From positions 1 through 64,000 of the forward strand of contig NZ_JAAKEL010000009.1 in assembly GCF_011039205.1 (NCBI RefSeq): DNA of 64,000 nucleotides. Reading direction: 5' to 3'. The notes under the pieces were generated by a model that ran no database searches, was not told where the DNA came from, and saw only the letters and a list, made by a program, of their open reading frames with translations. This document shows positions 23,281-33,867 of this stretch, in pieces. Within the stretch, counting starts at the first letter, position 1, and every line of letters starts with the position of its first letter. Both the position numbers and the translations under genes were made by a program. This DNA comes from Dysgonomonas sp. ZJ279. Lineage in GTDB: Bacteria > Bacteroidota > Bacteroidia > Bacteroidales > Dysgonomonadaceae.

Positions 23281-24759
23281 TTAATATTCTGTATTTTGAG
23301 GGTCGAAGTTTGCCCATCCTTTTGTCCAGTTGTCACTGTCTGCGTCACTTTTGAATGCACCCACATAATCAACTTGTTCAAAGCCATTCAATAGAGCATC
23401 GGTGAACGAAGCTGCTCCAAGTAGAGGACTGCCTGTTGTTGGTCCCCAATTGGCGTTAGAAAGAAGACTATTCGGTTGTTTTAGTTTCAAGTCGGAAATG
23501 TTGGCTAATACTTTATTGCTTGGTTGAGCAACGAAATAAGTGTGAGAAAATGATTGAGCATCAGTCATATCTTTTCCGTTTGTCGAATATTTGTCAACAA
23601 GGCTATTGTTTACATCAGATCCTACAACTCCCATTTGAGCGAAGAATACGTTGTTTATTTTCAAAGTACCGTTTTTAGCCAGCCCTTGCGTATTCCCATT
23701 TTGGTTGTCAAGGAGTAACCCTACAGGGAATCCCATTGCTACTGAATTGAAGCAACTCAATTGAGAATAACGTCTGATCTGCATAGCAGCCTGGAATAAT
23801 CCTGTTTTTGAGATGTTGTCGGGTCTGTAGTTGCCTGCATTGATATATTGCATAGTATTCATAAAATCATTTGCCTGACCAATAGGACCAACGAGAGTTA
23901 CATTACTGAATACAGTTGATGTTTTAGGATTGGCATCTGTTCCCGGTTTGTTATTGTCAGACTCGAAGCCATTCGATAAAGATGTATCTGCAATCTTAGG
24001 ATTACGGACGGCCAACAGATATTGTAGTTTACCTGAGAAACCGTTATCTGTGTCAAAGTCATCATCCCATCCGTGATATGCGATCAGGTATTTTGCACTG
24101 ACAGATCCACCGAACCACTCGAACGAATCGTCGTTGCTATATGATACCTGTACGTGATCTACTTTAGTAGCTCTACCTACCGACCCGAAAGTTACTCCAT
24201 TTATCTCTTGGTTTTCATCGAAAACAGAACCGGCAAATTCGACACGTACATAACTCAATATACCCGAATTATCATCGTCATTGTCTCCTCCATGTTTCGT
24301 TGTAGGGCCTCCTTCTATACCGAGTTGAGCTCCATTGTTATTTTTGGCATATCCGCATATAATAAGCCCTCCCCAGTCGCCCGGTTTGCGGCTTCCTTTA
24401 GGTTGTGCCGAAGTAAATACAATTGGTTCGGTAGCTGTTCCTTGTGCATAAATCTTACTTCCCGGCTCGATGATTAAACTTGCTTTAGAACCTTTTTCCC
24501 CTTTGATGATTGTACCCGGTTCGAAAGTAACTGTCGCACCATTTTTCACATATACCCATCCTTTCAGAGAGTAAGTGCCTTTTTTGTAAACCACATCTTT
24601 TGTGATTGTATATGTGTAACTACCATCACCTATTACACCCACTACGGGTTCCGGTTCAGGATCAACACCAGGAGTTACATTGTCGTCACTGCTACAACTT
24701 GTAAAAAGCATGATACTACTAGCTATCAACGCTAAACTAAATGATTTGAAAAGTTTCAT
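23281..24759 (-). CDS. outer-membrane lipoprotein with right-handed beta-helix fold, partner of a TonB receptor
   Basis: 492 residues; lipobox FTSC with Cys22 followed by SSDD, which suggests outer-membrane anchoring. A low-complexity acidic/proline linker (DPEPEPVVG) leads into a repeat-rich domain with strands such as GWVYVKNGATVTFEPGTII, SLIIEPGSKIYAQG, PIVFTSAQPKGSRKPGDWGG and VRVEFAG, a pattern of parallel beta-helix proteins. Acidic patches (GGDNDDDN, GWDDDFDTDNG) could bind metal. It lies 19 bp downstream of the TonB-dependent receptor and is likely its ligand-capturing partner, in the role SusD plays for SusC. Ligand unknown. Confidence 0.8.
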   Translation of the reverse strand: MKLFKSFSLALIASSIMLFTSCSSDDNVTPGVDPEPEPVVGVIGDGSYTYTITKDVVYKKGTYSLKGWVYVKNGATVTFEPGTIIKGEKGSKASLIIEPGSKIYAQGTATEPIVFTSAQPKGSRKPGDWGGLIICGYAKNNNGAQLGIEGGPTTKHGGDNDDDNSGILSYVRVEFAGSVFDENQEINGVTFGSVGRATKVDHVQVSYSNDDSFEWFGGSVSAKYLIAYHGWDDDFDTDNGFSGKLQYLLAVRNPKIADTSLSNGFESDNNKPGTDANPKTSTVFSNVTLVGPIGQANDFMNTMQYINAGNYRPDNISKTGLFQAAMQIRRYSQLSCFNSVAMGFPVGLLLDNQNGNTQGLAKNGTLKINNVFFAQMGVVGSDVNNSLVDKYSTNGKDMTDAQSFSHTYFVAQPSNKVLANISDLKLKQPNSLLSNANWGPTTGSPLLGAASFTDALLNGFEQVDYVGAFKSDADSDNWTKGWANFDPQNTEY

Positions 24760-24778
24760 AAACTAATTATTTTAAATT

Positions 24779-27646
24779 TTAGAAATTCAATTTGGCAGAA
24801 ATACTGATATTCTGTCCCGGATTATATTGTCGTGTAATTTGTTCTCTTTCGTGCAATACTCCCTCTTTATCTATGAATTTGGGGAATTGTTTGTAGAAAA
24901 TATCCTGAGAAAGTATGTCTTTGATTGAAGCGGCTATTTCTATACTTTTTCCGATTCTCTTTGTTACTGTGAAATCAAGTACATTTCGGGGCATCTCGTA
25001 CATATCGGGTATATCGTCGTTGACGGTGCTGCCCTCGCTCTTACTTTTGAGTCCGATACCTACAATCCGCTTCCCGATAATATTGTACATCAGTCCCGCA
25101 GTTAGTTGCATCGGGTCATTTTGATAAAAGAATCCTGCGTTTACAAGGAATGGAGATTGCCCCTGAAGCGGTCGCTCATCTTCGATACTACTCTCATCAA
25201 ATTTTACTTTACTGCTGATCAAAGAACCATTAAGAACTACTGATAAGTTTTTTAGTCCTATAAAATCGAGTTGCTTTTTTACATCTATTTCTACTCCTAG
25301 ATTATGGGCAGATAAAGCATTTTCGAAAGTAAAGACACGAGCTCCTCCTCCAGTATTTATGAATGACCATTCTATCGGATTTTCGAAGTGCTTATAGAAA
25401 AGAGAAACGGATATTAATTCAGAAGTCGATGGATAAAACTCGTATCGCAAATCTAAGTTCTGTATATAAGCAGCTTTTAAGTCGGGATTTCCTGTGATTC
25501 GGTTAAATAGATCGAAATCATAATAGGATGCAGGAGACACCTCTCTGAATTCGGGACGATTGATGGACATACCGTAAGCGAATCGCACTATATTATCTTT
25601 ATTCAGGTTATAACTGATATTCAAAGAAGGGAAAATATCTGTAGTTTTATATTCAGAGTCTTTTGTTTCATAACCGGTTCCCGATGTGTAGTTGGTGAGC
25701 GTCATAATATCGTGTTCGAAACGGGCCCCTGCATATATGTTGAACTTCTTGTAAGGAATATTGATTGCCAGATAAGTCGCTATAAGCTTGTTGTTACCTT
25801 CATAACTATCCACATTGTTTGTAGATTCGTTGATGTAAAGTTTACCGGCTCCAAAGTTTTCAGGAATCAATATATCCTTCACTACATTACCGAATCGGAA
25901 GCTATATGGGAAATAGTTTTCATTGAACAGATAGTCAAAATCCCGGGTCTTGTAATCCTTGGTTTTATATTCCCCATAAAATCCGCCTTTCAGAGTAGTT
26001 GTGATATCGGAACTGATTTTTAGATCATGTGAATAATTTGCTCCTGCGTTATAGGTATATTCGTTCAACTTAATAAAGTTACGCTCAATATCCGCTTGCG
26101 ATATAAACATTTGTCCGTTGAAAGGATCTTCGTCAGTCGAAGCATTTTCAGTACGGTTAATCATACGGCGGTCGGGTTGATTCTTGTTAGCGTACGAGAA
26201 TCCCAGTGTCCAGTCCAGTTTATCGGCAAAAGGCAATGTGTGTTTCCCTGTCAACTGCCCGGCGTATGTTGTTCTGCTCGAGTATAAATATTCTTCCCTT
26301 TCTTGTCTTTTCTCGCGTCCGCTAGTATAGTCTGTTCCATGGCGTAACGTATAACGGCTTTGTCCCAATTGGTTGAATATATTCTGAAACTCGTAGTGGT
26401 TATTGTTATTCGATATAAAAGATAAGTTAGCCATGGCTCCAACCCGCACATTTGTATTGTACTGATCGTCGCTATAATCGTTATCGGGTTCTACTTGGTC
26501 AGATATATCATTATAAACCTCATATTGTGCATTTCTCATGTTGGTGAGTGTACGGTTCAGATTGCTGTAATTTAGCGCAGTAGTCAACCCCCATAACTGT
26601 CCTCCTTCTTTTTTGATACGTCTGTTCATAGCAAACGAGAAGCGCTGGTCGGGAAGAGGATTTTTAGTTTTTATGTCCCAATTGTTATTGAATCCATTTC
26701 TGCTTACGGCATCTACTGTTTCTTTATCGTCAGAATTTAGTCTTGGAGGTACAATACTCCCGATGCTTCTAAGTCCGTTGTCGAACCCTAGAAAATCGGT
26801 CGGGCTTCCCGGATTATATTTGAAATCTTTGAAATGTGTCTGTGCATTTAAACCTGTTCCGTAAGTAATTTCCATCGAATTCTCATTTGGGATACCTTTT
26901 GTCGCCACTTTCACAAATCCTCCTGAAAAATCGGCAGGAAGTTCGGGTTGTGGCGATTTCACTATCATAATATTTTCTATTTGTGAACTCGGGATGAGGT
27001 CGAAAGAGAAAGAACGGGTATCCGATTCGGAACTTGGAGTGGCACTGTTGTTGACCCAAACATTGTTGTAGCGTTGTGATAATCCTCTGGCCACAATGAA
27101 TTTGTTATCCATAATAGATATTCCCGGAATACGTCTTATCACCTCGGCAGCGTCTCTATCCTGATTCTTAGATATCTGCTGAGAAGAAACTCCGCTGACA
27201 ATACCTGTCGATTTTTTCATCGAATTAAGCAACGATACTTCTGAGTTTATCCGGGCTGTTGCCATTACTACAACTTCATTTAATGATTGAAGAGATTCCT
27301 GCATTGGAATATTTAAGTCTGTATTCTCTCCTTTCTTTGTTTCTATGTCTGTAATCTCTAGTGGGCTGTACGACAGGCACGAGGCTGTAATCGTGTACTT
27401 TCCCGGTCCTACATTTAATTCATAATTACCATCGACATCGCTTATAACTCCGTGGGTTGTATTTTTTACTGAAATAGTAACTCCCGGTAGAGTTTCTCCC
27501 GTTTTACTGTCTGTCACAACTCCCTTTATAGATGTTTGTGCGAATAATGTTGTTGTAACAAATAAAGTAAAAACGGTTAAGACGGCTTTAAATAGGTAAT
27601 AGTGTCCTCTTGAATTAAGTGAAATGAAATAATTTGTCTTGTGCAT
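24779..27646 (-). CDS. TonB-dependent receptor with carboxypeptidase-like N-terminal domain
   Basis: 955 residues. Signal peptide ends near LFA-QT (residue 37). Carboxypeptidase-regulatory domain 38-125 (IKGVVTDSKTGETLPGVTISV), a TonB-box-like ALNEVVV stretch, plug domain about 150-260 (GVSSQQISKNQDRDAAEVIRRIPGI), then the barrel ending in NISISAKLNF. It lacks the SusC hallmark around the TonB box and has no SusD next to it, so it is a general TonB receptor. Together with the beta-helix lipoprotein gene it forms a two-gene operon closed by a strong terminator. Ligand unknown. Confidence 0.92.
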   Translation of the reverse strand: MHKTNYFISLNSRGHYYLFKAVLTVFTLFVTTTLFAQTSIKGVVTDSKTGETLPGVTISVKNTTHGVISDVDGNYELNVGPGKYTITASCLSYSPLEITDIETKKGENTDLNIPMQESLQSLNEVVVMATARINSEVSLLNSMKKSTGIVSGVSSQQISKNQDRDAAEVIRRIPGISIMDNKFIVARGLSQRYNNVWVNNSATPSSESDTRSFSFDLIPSSQIENIMIVKSPQPELPADFSGGFVKVATKGIPNENSMEITYGTGLNAQTHFKDFKYNPGSPTDFLGFDNGLRSIGSIVPPRLNSDDKETVDAVSRNGFNNNWDIKTKNPLPDQRFSFAMNRRIKKEGGQLWGLTTALNYSNLNRTLTNMRNAQYEVYNDISDQVEPDNDYSDDQYNTNVRVGAMANLSFISNNNNHYEFQNIFNQLGQSRYTLRHGTDYTSGREKRQEREEYLYSSRTTYAGQLTGKHTLPFADKLDWTLGFSYANKNQPDRRMINRTENASTDEDPFNGQMFISQADIERNFIKLNEYTYNAGANYSHDLKISSDITTTLKGGFYGEYKTKDYKTRDFDYLFNENYFPYSFRFGNVVKDILIPENFGAGKLYINESTNNVDSYEGNNKLIATYLAINIPYKKFNIYAGARFEHDIMTLTNYTSGTGYETKDSEYKTTDIFPSLNISYNLNKDNIVRFAYGMSINRPEFREVSPASYYDFDLFNRITGNPDLKAAYIQNLDLRYEFYPSTSELISVSLFYKHFENPIEWSFINTGGGARVFTFENALSAHNLGVEIDVKKQLDFIGLKNLSVVLNGSLISSKVKFDESSIEDERPLQGQSPFLVNAGFFYQNDPMQLTAGLMYNIIGKRIVGIGLKSKSEGSTVNDDIPDMYEMPRNVLDFTVTKRIGKSIEIAASIKDILSQDIFYKQFPKFIDKEGVLHEREQITRQYNPGQNISISAKLNF

Positions 27647-27841
27647 ATAAATTCTAAATTTTATCTACACAAAGCACATGCTTTATTGTTACAGGATAGT
27701 ACCTATTCTGATAAGGTTGAGTTACGCGAACACTCTTTTTTTGTTACGGATATTTCTTTTTTGTTAATGGAAATTTTGATAAATAGCATAATCTCGACTA
27801 ATGATAAAAAACTTGCTACTGCTTCAATTGCTTAAATGTAT

Positions 27842-27849
27842 TACCTTTG
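27842..27849 (+). promoter_or_regulatory. putative -7 promoter element of the metallo-beta-lactamase gene
   Basis: TACCTTTG matches TAnnTTTG and lies 41 bp before the ATG at 27891. A TTG at 27813-27815 is too far for a standard -33 box. Confidence 0.5.
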
Positions 27850-27890
27850 TTCTAAGAGACATTTATAGTAAATAAATCAAGTGTTTAGTA

Positions 27891-28631
27891 ATGAAAAGAA
27901 ATTTGATCATCCTGTCAATTATATTATTCCAGCTACCGATATTTGCCCAAAATGATCATCAGAGAATAAAAGTTTCTGATGATATTGAATTAATCAAGCT
28001 CTCGGATAAAACCTATGTACATGTATCTGTCGCTGAAATAGGCAGTTTCGGAAAAGTCTCTTCAAATGGATTGATTCTGGTAGACAAAGGAGAAGCATTT
28101 CTATTCGATACACCGGTAACAAATGCGCAGATGGAAGTATTAGCCAACTGGATTGCCGATTCGTTACATGCTGCAATTACAACGTTTATTCCTAACCATT
28201 GGCATGAAGACTGTATCGGAGGATTGGACTATCTGCATAGCAAAGGAGTGAAATCGTACGCTAACGAAATGACAATAGATATTGCAAGAGAGAAAGCGCT
28301 GCCTTTGCCGCAGTATGGATTTAAAGACTCTTTGGTTTTAAAAATGAACGATATAGATATTCTTTGTTATTATCTTGGTGCAGGGCATACTTTGGATAAT
28401 ATTGTAGTTTATATTCCATCCGAGAAAATTCTGTTTAGTGGATGTATGACAAAAGATATTCATTCCAAAGGATTAGGAAATACTATTGATGGAGACGTGA
28501 ACGAATGGGCGAAAACAATCGATAAAGTGCTGAATAAATTTCCTGAAGCAAGCGTTGTTATACCCGGTCATGGCGAGATTGGAGGAATTGAGTTGCTAAA
28601 GCATACACGAGAATTATTGAATAAGAAATAA
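27891..28631 (+). CDS. subclass B1 metallo-beta-lactamase, CfiA/CcrA-like
   Basis: 246 residues with a signal peptide (ends FA-QN, residue 20). All six zinc ligands of subclass B1 are in place: His103, His105 and Asp107 in NHWHED, His166 in GAGHTLDN, Cys185 in FSGCMTKD and His227 in PGHG. The surrounding sequence (SNGLILVD, TTFIPNHWH, GGLDYL, SYANEMTIDIA, IVVYIPSEKILFSGC) reads very much like CfiA/CcrA of Bacteroides fragilis as I remember it. One difference is Glu106, where CcrA has Gly. Expected function: periplasmic hydrolysis of beta-lactams, probably carbapenems. Two GNAT genes follow 6 bp apart each. No insertion sequence lies upstream. Confidence 0.93.
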   Translation: MKRNLIILSIILFQLPIFAQNDHQRIKVSDDIELIKLSDKTYVHVSVAEIGSFGKVSSNGLILVDKGEAFLFDTPVTNAQMEVLANWIADSLHAAITTFIPNHWHEDCIGGLDYLHSKGVKSYANEMTIDIAREKALPLPQYGFKDSLVLKMNDIDILCYYLGAGHTLDNIVVYIPSEKILFSGCMTKDIHSKGLGNTIDGDVNEWAKTIDKVLNKFPEASVVIPGHGEIGGIELLKHTRELLNKK

Positions 28632-28637
28632 TACGAA

Positions 28638-29090
28638 ATGGTTATAAGAGAATATATGGATTCGGACAAGGAGCAATTAATAGAATTGCTGAGGTTAAAT
28701 ACACCCGAATATTTTTCCCCAAGTGAGGAAGAGGATTTAAAAGATTATTTAGACAATCACGCCGATAATTATTATGTAGTCGATATTGATGGTGTAATAG
28801 TTGGATGCGGTGGTTTTAATTTGACTGACGACAGGGAAACAGGGAAAATATCATGGGATATTATTCACCCTAAAAGTCAGGGGCAGGGTGTAGGTCGTGA
28901 GTTGACCTTATTTAGAATCCGAAAAATGAAGGAGATTGAAAGTATAAAAACCATTTCTGTAAGAACATCACAGCTTGCTTATAAATTCTACGCAAAATTT
29001 GGCTTAGAACTAAGAGAGGTCGTTAAAGATTATTGGGATAAAGGTTTCGATATGTATAGGCTGGATTGCGATGTCAATTTAATTAAATAA
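28638..29090 (+). CDS. GNAT-family N-acetyltransferase
   Basis: 150 residues, single GNAT domain: acetyl-CoA loop SQGQGVGRELT near residue 89, central strand KISWDIIHP, and ending RTSQLAYKFYAKFGLELRE, the usual GNAT helix. It begins 6 bp after the metallo-beta-lactamase stop, so it is probably on the same transcript. Acceptor unknown; small GNATs may modify amino acids, polyamines, peptides or drugs. Confidence 0.85.
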   Translation: MVIREYMDSDKEQLIELLRLNTPEYFSPSEEEDLKDYLDNHADNYYVVDIDGVIVGCGGFNLTDDRETGKISWDIIHPKSQGQGVGRELTLFRIRKMKEIESIKTISVRTSQLAYKFYAKFGLELREVVKDYWDKGFDMYRLDCDVNLIK

Positions 29091-29096
29091 ACTGTT

Positions 29097-29522
29097 ATGG
29101 ATATATTTATTCCGACCGAAATAAACGAAGATATTGTCGAGGCTTTTGCCCGATTGATGCCCCAGTTGTCGCCCGATTGCCGGATACCGACAAAGGAATA
29201 TTTAGAGAAGATTATAAATGCAGAGGGTAGCTATTTATTTCTCGCTAAAGATGAGAAGATAGCAGGAACACTTACACTTGTTATCTATCAAATACCCACA
29301 GGCAGAAAAGCGTGGATAGAAGATGTTGTCGTAGATAGTAATATGCGGGGCAAAGGTATTGCCGAAAAGCTATTACAGGCGGCGATCGATTTTGTCCGTA
29401 AAGAAGGGATACAAAAACTAGACCTTACATCAAGTATCGAAAGGCAATCAGCACATGCCTTGTATAAGAAAATGGGCTTTGAAGAACGGAGTACAACGGT
29501 GTTTAGGTTGTTGATCGATTAA
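29097..29522 (+). CDS. GNAT-family N-acetyltransferase
   Basis: 141 residues with the GNAT core: strand KAWIEDVVVDSNMRGKGIAEKLL (acetyl-CoA loop RGKGIA near 84-89) and the ending SAHALYKKMGFEERST. It follows the previous GNAT gene by 6 bp. Its 3' end overlaps the convergent GNAT gene at 29503-30048 by 20 bp. Acceptor unknown. Confidence 0.87.
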   Translation: MDIFIPTEINEDIVEAFARLMPQLSPDCRIPTKEYLEKIINAEGSYLFLAKDEKIAGTLTLVIYQIPTGRKAWIEDVVVDSNMRGKGIAEKLLQAAIDFVRKEGIQKLDLTSSIERQSAHALYKKMGFEERSTTVFRLLID

Positions 29523-30048
29523 AAGCGACTCTTTTTATTGAATATCTGTGTTCGATACACCAAGAGCCTTTGCACATAACCTTTTCTTCAAAATCAGTCG
29601 ATTTGGTCATACCTACCGATTTCATCAGTTTTATAGAAGCTATATTTTCAGAATCTGTTATGCCTATAACTTCGTCAACAATTCTATTAACGAAGCAATA
29701 ATTTAGGAGTAAGGTTACTGCTTCTTTGGCAATGCCCTTATTCTGATATTCGGGGGAAATATTGCAGCCTATTTCTGCTATGTTTTCAGAGACTTTCACT
29801 GCACAATCGCCTATAAGTTTATTATGTTCATTCCATATCACAGCTAAACCAATCCATTCACCGATTCTATTCAGGTCAATATTTTTGCATTGATTTACAA
29901 AAGCCATTGTTTGCTCTTTGGTAAAAGGTTCCCAATACTGATATTTTGCAATGCTATCTAGAGAACGATATGAATAAATGCTATCGACATCCGTTTCGTA
30001 GAAATTTCTCATTAGTAGTCGATCGGATGATATTGTTTTATTTTTCAT
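29503..30048 (-). CDS. RimJ/RimL-type GNAT acetyltransferase
   Basis: 181 residues. The N-terminal SDRLLMRNFYETDVDSIYSY and the loop NKGIAKEAV with ENIASIKLMKSVGM place it in the Acetyltransf_3 (RimJ/RimL-like) group, many of which acetylate N-terminal residues of proteins or small molecules. Convergent with and overlapping the GNAT gene at 29097-29522. It lies 16 bp downstream of the DUF418 gene and may be co-transcribed. Confidence 0.87.
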   Translation of the reverse strand: MKNKTISSDRLLMRNFYETDVDSIYSYRSLDSIAKYQYWEPFTKEQTMAFVNQCKNIDLNRIGEWIGLAVIWNEHNKLIGDCAVKVSENIAEIGCNISPEYQNKGIAKEAVTLLLNYCFVNRIVDEVIGITDSENIASIKLMKSVGMTKSTDFEEKVMCKGSWCIEHRYSIKRVAFNRSTT

Positions 30049-30064
30049 GTTTGATACTATATTC

Positions 30065-31252
30065 TTACTTCGACTTTATCCACGTCAGTTTATGCCAAAT
30101 ACTCTCCAAAGGTCCTTGCTTGTGGCTTTTGAGCCACCACTTGCAGAATCCTACCTGTGCGACGAATACGAGGATACCGATAAGTAAACTTACGGTATAT
30201 CCGCAATATGGAGCTAGATAAAGACCAAAAGGGAAGTAAATAACTGCACCTATCATCGACTGGGTTAAATAGTTTGTAAGACTCATTTTACCATAAAAGC
30301 GTAAATTGCCAGTCAACTTTCTGAATCTCTCGGTTTGATATAGCAATACAAATGAAGATACAAGCACAAACGTAAATGCGAATTTCTGCCACATATCGGC
30401 GACAACACCTACTGATTGCTTAATCATCGGTACATCGCTTTTATCGTATAATAATACTTTCAACTCATAAACAGGACAGAATAATACAGCAGATATAATA
30501 AGCACCTTCACCCAAAAGCGGGTATTCTTTTCAGACGAAATAAAAAGCTGTTTTCGTCCTATCAACATTCCCATCATAAACAATCCTGCTGTTTGAAGGA
30601 AGCGACCGCCACCGATAGCCCAGAACAAACTGGCTTTCTGACCGACAGTGATATTTCCAAGTATAAATTCCCCGAAATTACCATCTTTGGTATATGTTGC
30701 TACTTCGCCATACAAAGCGCCTACACCAAGATCGGGCAGGGCGTACGAAGGGTCGACAATACTAGCTATATAATGAAACCATTCTACGGGTTGTGCCAAC
30801 AGCATTATTGCTAGTATTAAGACGGTTTTGTCGTTCAACTTACGCACAGCAAAAAGAAAGATACCTACAATCGAAAATAATAGCAATACATCTCCGCCGG
30901 GAAAAAATGCGGCATTTATAGTGGCAAAACCGACTAATAAGAGTAATCGCCAAAGAAAACGGTAACCGAAATCGTTACCCTTCAATTGCTGATTGGTGTA
31001 TTGTATATAGAATGTGAAGCCGAAAAGGAGGGCAAAAATAGCGTACGATTTGCCTGCAAAAAGCGAAAATATAATACTGAATACACCATTATCCAATATA
31101 TTCAACCATTCGGGTTGAGTGGCAGGATCGGGGTAGACAGGGAATATAAAATGTTCCAGACTATGAACCAATAAGATTGCCATAACAGCAAATCCACGAA
31201 GTGCATCAACGACTTCTATGCGTGGTGTTTTAGACAGAAGGTTTTCTTTCAT
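30065..31252 (-). CDS. DUF418 domain membrane protein (YeiB-like)
   Basis: 395 residues with about ten transmembrane helices. The start IEVVDALRGFAVMAILLVHSLEHF and the C-terminal DUF418 domain (LRFYGKMSLTNYLTQSMIGAVIYFPFG, ending VGFCKWWLKSHKQGPLESIWHKLTW) are typical of this family, which is related to acyltransferase 3. PLESIWR-type endings are a DUF418 hallmark. Function unknown; probably inner membrane. Confidence 0.88.
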   Translation of the reverse strand: MKENLLSKTPRIEVVDALRGFAVMAILLVHSLEHFIFPVYPDPATQPEWLNILDNGVFSIIFSLFAGKSYAIFALLFGFTFYIQYTNQQLKGNDFGYRFLWRLLLLVGFATINAAFFPGGDVLLLFSIVGIFLFAVRKLNDKTVLILAIMLLAQPVEWFHYIASIVDPSYALPDLGVGALYGEVATYTKDGNFGEFILGNITVGQKASLFWAIGGGRFLQTAGLFMMGMLIGRKQLFISSEKNTRFWVKVLIISAVLFCPVYELKVLLYDKSDVPMIKQSVGVVADMWQKFAFTFVLVSSFVLLYQTERFRKLTGNLRFYGKMSLTNYLTQSMIGAVIYFPFGLYLAPYCGYTVSLLIGILVFVAQVGFCKWWLKSHKQGPLESIWHKLTWIKSK

Positions 31253-31315
31253 TTACTATGTTTATGGTACTGTAAATATAATTAAAACTATTAAATTGAC
31301 AATCCTGATATAGTA

Positions 31316-32251
31316 TTATAACAAACGATTTTTGTTCCGATTGGCCAGTGATTTAAGATTAGGTAATACTATCGCTATCAGAATAATTGCCACTCCCATC
31401 CATTGCAATAAAGCTACATTTTCGCGAAGTATAAGATACGATGATAGTACGGCTACAGGCAGTTCGGCCGTACTGAATATAGCACCCAGCGACACGCCCG
31501 TTTTGGGTATCCCGATAGAAAAGAATAGGGGAGGTATTACTGTACCGAATACGGCGAGAGCTAATCCCCACTTATATAGTCCGTCGAACAGTACACCATC
31601 GAAAAAGAATAGGGGAGGGAAGATTATAAAGGTCAATATACACGAGCCTGTTATCATTAAAGCACTCTTTTTCAGTGCAGGCAATTCATTACCGACTCTG
31701 CCACTTGTGATGAGAAAAAGCGCATAGGCTAGTGCTGCTAAAAAACCGAAGGCAATCCCTGTAGGGTTAAGCGTAAGCGATTCGTTGAATACTCCTCCTG
31801 CAAAAACAGTTCCAATAAGTACAATACAGACTGCTATGAGTTGTATACGTGTAGGTTTTTTTTTGAAAATAATAGCTTCTATCACAATACTTATCCACAA
31901 GTATTGCATCAACAGGATGATGGAGATAGAAGCCGGTAATAGTTTTACACATTGATAGTAAAATATTCCGACCAATCCCGTGAACATGCCTGCTGCACAA
32001 ACTTTCCACCACGCGGTTTTGGGTTGAGGTTCGCTCTCTTTTCCTATATCGTATGAGCTTCTTGTAGGGAATAATTTCTTTTGTAAGAGATATAGTATCC
32101 ATAATAATAACATGCCGAAAAATGTCTGACTACCTGTTATATGTCCTAATGTATATCCTTCGCCATAAGCCGTTTTTACAATAGTAGATAATACACCGAA
32201 ACTACATGCTCCCAGAAATACAAATATGCTACCTTTTACTCTCTTGTCCAT
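31316..32251 (-). CDS. EamA/DMT-family transporter
   Basis: 311 residues with about ten transmembrane helices arranged as two EamA repeats (residues about 6-155 and 165-300). Landmarks are the first-helix VFLGACSFGVLSTIVKTAYGEG, LLMQYLWISIVIEAIIFKKKPT at the end of repeat one and LILRENVALLQWMGVAIILIAIVL at the end of repeat two. A drug/metabolite exporter or importer of the inner membrane; substrate unknown. It stands alone. Confidence 0.88.
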   Translation of the reverse strand: MDKRVKGSIFVFLGACSFGVLSTIVKTAYGEGYTLGHITGSQTFFGMLLLWILYLLQKKLFPTRSSYDIGKESEPQPKTAWWKVCAAGMFTGLVGIFYYQCVKLLPASISIILLMQYLWISIVIEAIIFKKKPTRIQLIAVCIVLIGTVFAGGVFNESLTLNPTGIAFGFLAALAYALFLITSGRVGNELPALKKSALMITGSCILTFIIFPPLFFFDGVLFDGLYKWGLALAVFGTVIPPLFFSIGIPKTGVSLGAIFSTAELPVAVLSSYLILRENVALLQWMGVAIILIAIVLPNLKSLANRNKNRLL

Positions 32252-32485
32252 TTATTCTACCTCTCTCTGATTTTTGTACAAAAGTACTCTAAATAACGCT
32301 CAGGTGGAATAGAGAGATAAAAATAAAAAAGCATTCAGCAATAATCATATTTATATAAAATGTATTCTTTTATTAGTAATAATTCTGTTAGTTATATCTT
32401 TTATAGATAATTGTTTCATTCAATATTGAATATCTTGTATAATGAATATATATTTGGAAAGTATTATCTTTATTATATTTACACT

Positions 32486-32908
32486 ATGGATATATGTATA
32501 GATTTTGACGGCACATGTGTGTCTCACGAATTTCCCGATATAGGGAATGATATAGGAGCTGTTCCGGTACTGAAAGAACTGGTGGAGAAAGGGCATCGAC
32601 TAATTCTTTTTACTATGCGTAGTGATCGCAAGAAGAAGAAAAAAGTGGATGGGCAGGAAGTTATTGTCGAAGAAAATGTATTGTCTGATGCTATCCGATG
32701 GTTTGAAGAAAATGGAATCCCCCTATATGGTGTGCAGAAAAATCCGACACAACGTTTCTGGACATCGTCGCCCAAAGCCTACGGACATCTGTATATTGAT
32801 GATGCTAATCTGGGTTGCCCGCTATTGGATAATGATGAAGGATCTCAAAGACCTTATGTGGACTGGGTAAGAGTGAAAGAAATGCTTGTTGAAAAGGGCG
32901 TATTATAA
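32486..32908 (+). CDS. HAD-superfamily small hydrolase (BT0820-like)
   Basis: I place the start at the ATG at 32486 (140 residues), because the protein opens into the HAD motif I DFDGT at once; the longer reading has 25 extra residues with no family character. Asp5/Asp7 form motif I (MDICIDFDGT), LILFTMRS gives motif II, and YIDDAN the C-terminal acidic motif. It resembles the small conserved Bacteroidales HAD proteins of the BT0820 kind. It has no cap domain. Substrate unknown. It lies 8 bp before the dehydrogenase gene. Confidence 0.82.
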   Translation: MDICIDFDGTCVSHEFPDIGNDIGAVPVLKELVEKGHRLILFTMRSDRKKKKKVDGQEVIVEENVLSDAIRWFEENGIPLYGVQKNPTQRFWTSSPKAYGHLYIDDANLGCPLLDNDEGSQRPYVDWVRVKEMLVEKGVL

Positions 32909-32916
32909 AAATCGGT

Positions 32917-33867
32917 ATGAAAAAAATATTAATGGGGCATGATTTCAAACGCGAAGGATTTAAGGATCTGGAGGGAAAGTTCGAAATGATTTACCCTGAA
33001 AATGAACACTTCAAAAGAGAAGAGGTATTAGAACTTATATCAGATATAAATGTACTGATTCCTAATTTTTCTTTTCAGACAGATAAAGAAATAATAGATG
33101 CAGGTACTAATTTGCAGCTGATTGCAAACTATGGCGTAGGCTATAATAATATAGATGTAGATTATGCATCTCAAAAAGGCATACCTGTGACTAATACTCC
33201 AAATTCGGTACTCGAACCTACGGCTGAACTATGTTTCGCTTTATTGCTTGCTACTGCTCGCAGAGTGGGCTATTATAACAACAAATTGCACAATGGCGAG
33301 CGATTGGGTTGGGGGTTGTTTGATAATCCCGGACTACCTGTATATGGGCAAACATTGGGTATTTATGGAATGGGCCGTATCGGTCAATCCGTTGCGCGTC
33401 GTGCTGTAGCTTCCGGGATGAAGATTATTTATTGTAATCGTCACCGTTTAGATAAGAGCATTGAAGAAAAATATGGTGCTGCTTATGTTGATTTTGATAC
33501 CTTACTTAAAGAATCTGATTTTGTTTCTCTGAATGTTCCTGCCACTGCCGAAACCCGCCATTTAATGGGAGAAGCCGAGTTTAAGAAAATGAAGAATACA
33601 GCTATACTGATCAATACTGCACGTGGGGCTTTAGTGGATGAAAAGGCTTTAATAGAAGCTTTGAAGAATGAAGAGATATTTGCGGCAGGACTCGATGTGT
33701 TTGAGAATGAGCCTAAAATTTCACCGGAATTGTTCAGCTTCGAGAATGTAGTACTGACTCCTCATGCCGGAACACAAACGTATGCTGCCCGTTTAGATAT
33801 GCAGAGAGAGGTAGCAAAGAATATAATTAATTTCTTCGAGGGAGGAGAAATTAGTAAAGTAAACTGA
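32917..33867 (+). CDS. D-isomer-specific 2-hydroxyacid dehydrogenase
   Basis: 316 residues. The NAD-binding loop is GMGRIG (151-156), and the catalytic set is Arg236 (NTARGAL), Glu265 (FENEP) and His283 (TPHAGT), as in glyoxylate/hydroxypyruvate and D-lactate-type dehydrogenases. The N-terminal substrate domain shows NYGVGYNNIDVDYA and the conserved VLEPTAELCFALLLATAR. Asn174 in YCNRH, rather than Asp after the second strand, suggests NADPH may be accepted, but this is inference. Substrate not determined. Confidence 0.92.
   Translation: MKKILMGHDFKREGFKDLEGKFEMIYPENEHFKREEVLELISDINVLIPNFSFQTDKEIIDAGTNLQLIANYGVGYNNIDVDYASQKGIPVTNTPNSVLEPTAELCFALLLATARRVGYYNNKLHNGERLGWGLFDNPGLPVYGQTLGIYGMGRIGQSVARRAVASGMKIIYCNRHRLDKSIEEKYGAAYVDFDTLLKESDFVSLNVPATAETRHLMGEAEFKKMKNTAILINTARGALVDEKALIEALKNEEIFAAGLDVFENEPKISPELFSFENVVLTPHAGTQTYAARLDMQREVAKNIINFFEGGEISKVN

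Follow-up and report, generated by a model that had tools for sequence, protein, structure and literature searches.

The CcrA-containing group of subclass B1 metallo-beta-lactamases, group B1-3, is described in a passage of PMC5637372 as consisting of Bacteroidetes families, and the same source reports imipenem hydrolysis in E. coli for 18 of the 21 new B1 genes that it tested, 3 of 21 being inactive. Passages of PMC9472255 and PMC9138018 place a GNAT acetyltransferase gene and a XAT gene with cfiA, the gene for CcrA (CfiA) of Bacteroides fragilis, and a GNAT with crxA, whose product CrxA has a 101-aa tail (PMC9472255). For Dysgonomonas, a case report on D. capnocytophagoides mentions meropenem resistance (PMC8362339), and a section of PMC9431661 describes D. 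mossii strains as carbapenem-susceptible, so that B1 carriage or expression is not general in the genus. Dysgonomonas already has at least one named B1 family (the NCBIfam DYB model), and the D. capnocytophagoides DSM 22835 enzyme, which served as the positive control for that model, reaches 590.9 bits on it (locus L061). A literature search of open-access papers, limited in coverage, listed no description of a B1 enzyme from Dysgonomonas.

In this study we examine a B1 gene in a window of 64,000 nucleotides (the whole stretch of DNA analysed) from Dysgonomonas sp. ZJ279. We find that its product is an ordinary and probably functional enzyme of subclass B1, from an unnamed family beside CfiA. 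With this gene Dysgonomonas, an occasional opportunist in which carbapenem susceptibility varies by species, gains a B1 allele family that has no name, and CfiA, an enzyme of clinical importance, is seen to have close relatives in the gut Bacteroidales.

The lactamase gene and its active site

The gene (27891..28631, plus strand) was assigned from the open reading frame, family models, alignment to CcrA and a structure match; it starts with ATG and encodes 246 aa with no internal stop. The N-terminus is hydrophobic and, judged by eye, looks like that of an exported protein, with a signal peptide at residues 1-20 (27891..27950, plus strand) that ends in LPIFAQ, is probably of the signal peptidase I type and is cleaved at a site also placed by eye; the AlphaFold2 model has a hydrophobic helix at residues 2-18, where its confidence is lower. 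The protein passes the NCBIfam bla_subclass_B1 equivalog model (267.8 bits, cut-off 200, E 6.9e-80), the only one passed among the 25 best families shown, and falls below the curated models for CfiA (317.4 bits, cut-off 550), DYB (287 bits, cut-off 550), the B1 long type (210.3 bits, cut-off 350) and BlaB/IND/MUS (161.6 bits, cut-off 270). Its best matches in the PDB are chains of B. fragilis CcrA (E 1.6e-91), and these two E-values put the B1 likeness far above chance. The AlphaFold2 model, built with 40 aligned sequences (pLDDT 94.0, pTM 0.87), has the B1-type metallo-beta-lactamase fold: CcrA (1a7t, 57% identity) is the first-ranked Foldseek match, and VIA-align superimposes the model on B. 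fragilis CcrA with an rmsd of 0.8 A over 222 residues (Z 39.7).

All six B1 zinc ligands can be located by aligning the protein with CcrA and its relatives. H103, H105 and D107, in the motif H103-W-H105-E106-D107 (28197..28211, plus strand), correspond to BBL H116, H118 and D120, numbers that we matched to CcrA, with E106 at position 119; H166 (28386..28388), C185 (28443..28445) and H227 (28569..28571), all on the plus strand, correspond to H196, C221 and H263. The second-shell residues K188 (BBL 224) and N197 (BBL 233) are kept as well. In the established enzymology of the B1 class, a hydroxide bridging the two zinc ions is the nucleophile and Zn2 assists the leaving nitrogen. Here Zn1 would be held by H103, H105 and H166 and Zn2 by D107, C185 and H227; the bridging hydroxide would attack the beta-lactam carbonyl and Zn2 would stabilise the anionic nitrogen, both as in CcrA. 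Penicillins, cephalosporins and carbapenems would be the expected substrates.

The initial annotation, which called the gene a CfiA-like B1 metallo-beta-lactamase with all six ligands intact, is thus borne out on class, integrity and ligands; "CfiA-like" holds in so far as CcrA/CfiA is the closest solved relative, and fails as a statement of family membership, given 317.4 of 550 bits, 55% identity and a rejected common clade (p-AU 0.027, below). It had also singled out Glu106 (codon GAA, 28206-28208), which follows the second His and precedes the zinc Asp, in the place of a Gly in CcrA (NHWHED against NHWHGD; BBL 119). The residue is as described, but it is not an unusual change. Glu occupies the site in 50 of 117 aligned rows, a tally made without L045, L066 and L106 (shorter than 220 aa as called), and in 48 of 116 non-redundant rows, where it is the commonest residue, ahead of W (13), G (12), D (10), S (8) and others. 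Gly119 in the latter set is found mostly in CfiA and a sister clade from Bacteroides, whose 11 rows (CfiA2 and L157-L166) have G in 9, S in 1 and E in 1. These tallies rule out Glu106 as a special feature: since Glu is commonest around this lactamase, the "replacement" appears solely through the choice of CcrA as yardstick, Glu119 being the usual state of the group, whereas Gly characterises the CfiA lineage. Residue 119 of TMB-1 is the subject named in the title of PDB entry 5mmd, which appears in the Foldseek listing.

Setting of the locus

The source contig is 112.8 kb long in a genome of 4.10 Mb, and since genes for BipA, LpxC, LpxD, PurD and SRP54 lie within the window the locus is chromosomal, as had been proposed. 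Of 25 Dysgonomonas genomes, 6 have a B1 match, ZJ279 included and a long-type protein with altered ligands (G013) counted, so the gene is accessory. Carriage on a mobile element was considered and set aside, because the viral contigs, phages and plasmids searched showed no close relative of the lactamase: positions 18000-40000 have no near match among plasmids, the 2732 plasmid records with lactamase relatives all stay below 60% identity (the best, cfiA2 of pBFUK1, at 54.7%), the phage search gave no match and the viral contigs searched gave no confirmed relative. An Rfam scan of 24000-33000 returned no family, no tRNA was found in the window, and the repeats around the gene are short and weak only.

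Upstream lies a divergent gene for a TonB-dependent receptor (24779..27646, minus strand; ORF call and family models), given here as context only, with relatives in 10 of 25 Dysgonomonas genomes. No transposase-like ORF was recognised beside the lactamase gene, in keeping with the earlier remark that no insertion sequence is upstream. A TAnnTTTG element, TACCTTTG (27842..27849, plus strand; motif search), stands 41 bases before the ATG as a possible -7 box. The initial annotation was right about its presence, and its hint of a promoter found no support: the window holds 96 such motifs where chance predicts 75.9 +/- 9.4 (at least that many occur in 3 of 100 shuffles), and the nearest upstream TTGs lie at 11 and 26 bases. 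Bacteroides -33/-7 promoters have a spacing of roughly 19-21, and no correctly spaced -33 partner was found for this element. With a near-chance frequency and no well-spaced -33 element it is not supported as the lactamase promoter, and no convincing promoter was found upstream of the gene.

Three GNAT acetyltransferase genes stand in a row beside the lactamase (28638-30048). The first (28638..29090, plus strand) begins 6 bases past the lactamase stop and the second (29097..29522, plus strand) 6 bases past the first, both from ORF calls and domain matches; the third (29503..30048, minus strand) was recognised by domain match. The first has no match at E 1e-15 in the 24 other Dysgonomonas genomes (1 of 25, ZJ279 alone), and 16 of 25 genomes, ZJ279 included, have a match to the second. 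In the other genomes whose coordinates were compared, the relatives of these two neighbours, the TonB receptor and the second GNAT, are unlinked, and no empty site without the lactamase was found. GNAT neighbours are not rare as such, since the ZJ279 genome has 45 GNAT matches, and the one PADLOC match of the GNATs, a weak one (E 1.7e-05), we took as general GNAT similarity.

We surveyed GNATs at 112 B1 loci, nine duplicates having been dropped from 121. A GNAT lies within two ORFs of the B1 gene at 14 of the 112 and is adjacent at 9. Counted by ORF, GNATs make up 15 of 429 near B1 genes and 11 of 536 farther off (p 0.23), so they are not generally enriched beside B1 genes. In a CfiA/gut set picked afterwards, a GNAT was present at 8 of 24 loci against 6 of 88 (p 0.0019); among those eight, Pfam does not confirm the GNAT of L166 and gives a borderline result for L164, and the GNATs of the 88-locus set were named without Pfam, with L168 (too short for the tree, no GNAT) counted there. 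We regard this excess around CfiA and the window lactamase as a lead. Two loci with 100% CfiA show the variation directly: L158 has the arrangement GNAT-XAT-cfiA, and L157 has no GNAT within two ORFs. In one genome bin (G001) two related B1 copies were seen (L021 and L022, on contigs C101 and C72), each within an array of same-strand small-enzyme genes with very short gaps, whose members, named by eye, include flavodoxin-like, methyltransferase, GNAT and other genes.

Relationships among the B1 enzymes

The sequences nearest to the lactamase, at 60-68% identity, come from draft and metagenome records of gut Bacteroidales, presumably of termite or cockroach origin to judge from record and isolate names; other-phylum labels on some of these records are probably misbinning. 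Identity is 55.4% to CfiA2 and 51% to the D. capnocytophagoides enzyme. Trees were built from 116 rows and, with bootstraps, from 50 of them, leaving aside L045 and L168 (short) and exact duplicates. In both, the lactamase joins the gut Bacteroidales sequences (support 88/67, weak) within the group that holds CfiA, and the B1 genes of D. hofstadii, strain 10(H), D. macrotermitis, D. alginatilytica, Marseille-P4677 and D. capnocytophagoides fall outside that group. The trees thus place the lactamase among the B1 enzymes of the Bacteroidota, together with CfiA.

The enzyme therefore sits in the CcrA-containing Bacteroidota branch of B1 and is neither CfiA nor DYB, and the two readings that would make it one or the other deserve comparison. 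That it is a true CfiA, the Dysgonomonas counterpart of the cfiA element of B. fragilis and the acetyltransferases in it, we consider highly improbable. CcrA chains are indeed its closest solved structures, GNAT and XAT genes are reported as parts of the cfiA element, and the window order lactamase-GNAT-GNAT recalls GNAT-XAT-cfiA of L158; yet identity and bit score are both far from CfiA, Bacteroides genomes contain a sister clade closer to CfiA than the lactamase is, and a clade of CfiA2, L158 and the lactamase alone is rejected in the 50-row tree (p-AU 0.027). Moreover, the window GNATs lie downstream and have no blastp match to the cfiA GNAT at E 1e-3, and a hexapeptide XAT gene is found neither before nor after the lactamase. 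Vertical inheritance of a DYB-lineage enzyme within Dysgonomonas is less remote but still unlikely. The genus is shared, and a Dysgonomonas clade that includes the lactamase is not rejected in the 50-row tree (p-AU 0.118; both groups in this topology test were picked after viewing the first tree). Against it stand the DYB score and the 51% identity, the grouping in the best trees with termite/cockroach-gut sequences, and the neighbourhood of the D. hofstadii and strain 10(H) genes, which lie between methylglyoxal-synthase-like and clpC-like genes (named by eye), unlike the window gene. Tree position suggests that the lactamase may be of horizontal origin within Dysgonomonas, a suggestion kept tentative by the unrejected Dysgonomonas clade.

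Conservation of the active site also bears on whether the protein works. It could keep the B1 fold and yet be silent, or serve as some other hydrolase, in a host without resistance; silent cfiA strains are known (in part of PMC9138018), D. mossii is carbapenem-susceptible, as noted above, and the gene has no clear promoter. We nevertheless judge this unlikely, since all ligands and Lys224/Asn233 are conserved in an intact ORF, and the Cys221 to Asp ligand change of other Dysgonomonas enzymes is not found in the window lactamase. The preferred reading, to which we give high confidence, is an exported (periplasmic) di-zinc B1 metallo-beta-lactamase encoded on the chromosome of a Dysgonomonas species. 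We infer its export, zinc content, activity and substrate range, and it would very probably destroy penicillins and carbapenems.

Several related genes depart from the usual sequence. A natural Cys221 to Asp change (FAGD) in an intact B1 protein with the other ligands kept occurs in D. alginatilytica (L051:2939-3679), Dysgonomonas sp. Marseille-P4677 (L062:1102-1845) and genome G029 (L025:6076-6819, minus strand); these 3 of 116 rows form one well-supported clade (100/94, 50-row tree), and the first two pass the B1 model with 265 and 253 bits. Engineered C221D in BcII is reported to keep catalysis and lose zinc affinity and MIC (a passage of PMC4212336); no natural Asp221 B1 enzyme was among the open-access literature matches listed. 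Two long-type B1-like proteins of 346 aa, from Dysgonomonas G013 (L028:5263-6303) and Bacteroides G535 (L169:6001-7041), have a C-terminal extension and carry Arg in place of H116 and Asn in place of C221; the former scores 509.7 bits on the NCBI "B1 long type" model (cut-off 350), both are perhaps kin of CrxA, and zinc binding appears doubtful. In Bacteroides reticulotermitis a CfiA-like gene is broken in two (L066/L168); the parts overlap and are in different frames, as would be seen in a pseudogene or after an assembly error.

Comparison with known systems

A broader picture can be drawn, though we would wager little on it: a gut Bacteroidales lactamase lineage beside CfiA might move between genera with varying acetyltransferase and other small detoxification genes, units that pair a lactamase with a GNAT, as the B. 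fragilis cfiA element does, having arisen several times. Lactamase-GNAT-GNAT might then be transcribed as one unit directed at two or three classes of drug; alternatively, the GNATs might tune tolerance as proposed for cfiA.

Set beside CfiA/CcrA of Bacteroides fragilis, the lactamase shares the B1 fold, the six ligands, C121, K224, N233 and length, and differs in its 55% identity, Glu for Gly at 119, a score below the CfiA cut-off and the lack of an adjacent IS or XAT. With DYB of Dysgonomonas capnocytophagoides it has in common the genus, the B1 group and Glu at 119; against this stand 51% identity, 287 of 550 bits and, in the DYB enzyme (L061), Arg rather than Cys at 121. The solved environmental B1 enzymes MYO-1, ECV-1, CIM-2 and the CcrA-like protein of Dyadobacter share the fold at 34-41% identity. 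The closest likeness is to the unnamed gut Bacteroidales B1 genes (L029-L034, L036, L038 and L039; for example BNXH01, BNXR01 and BNTW01), which are nearest in the trees, are 60-68% identical and carry HWHED in 7 of 9, and which differ in their neighbouring genes and in coming from MAGs or draft bins.
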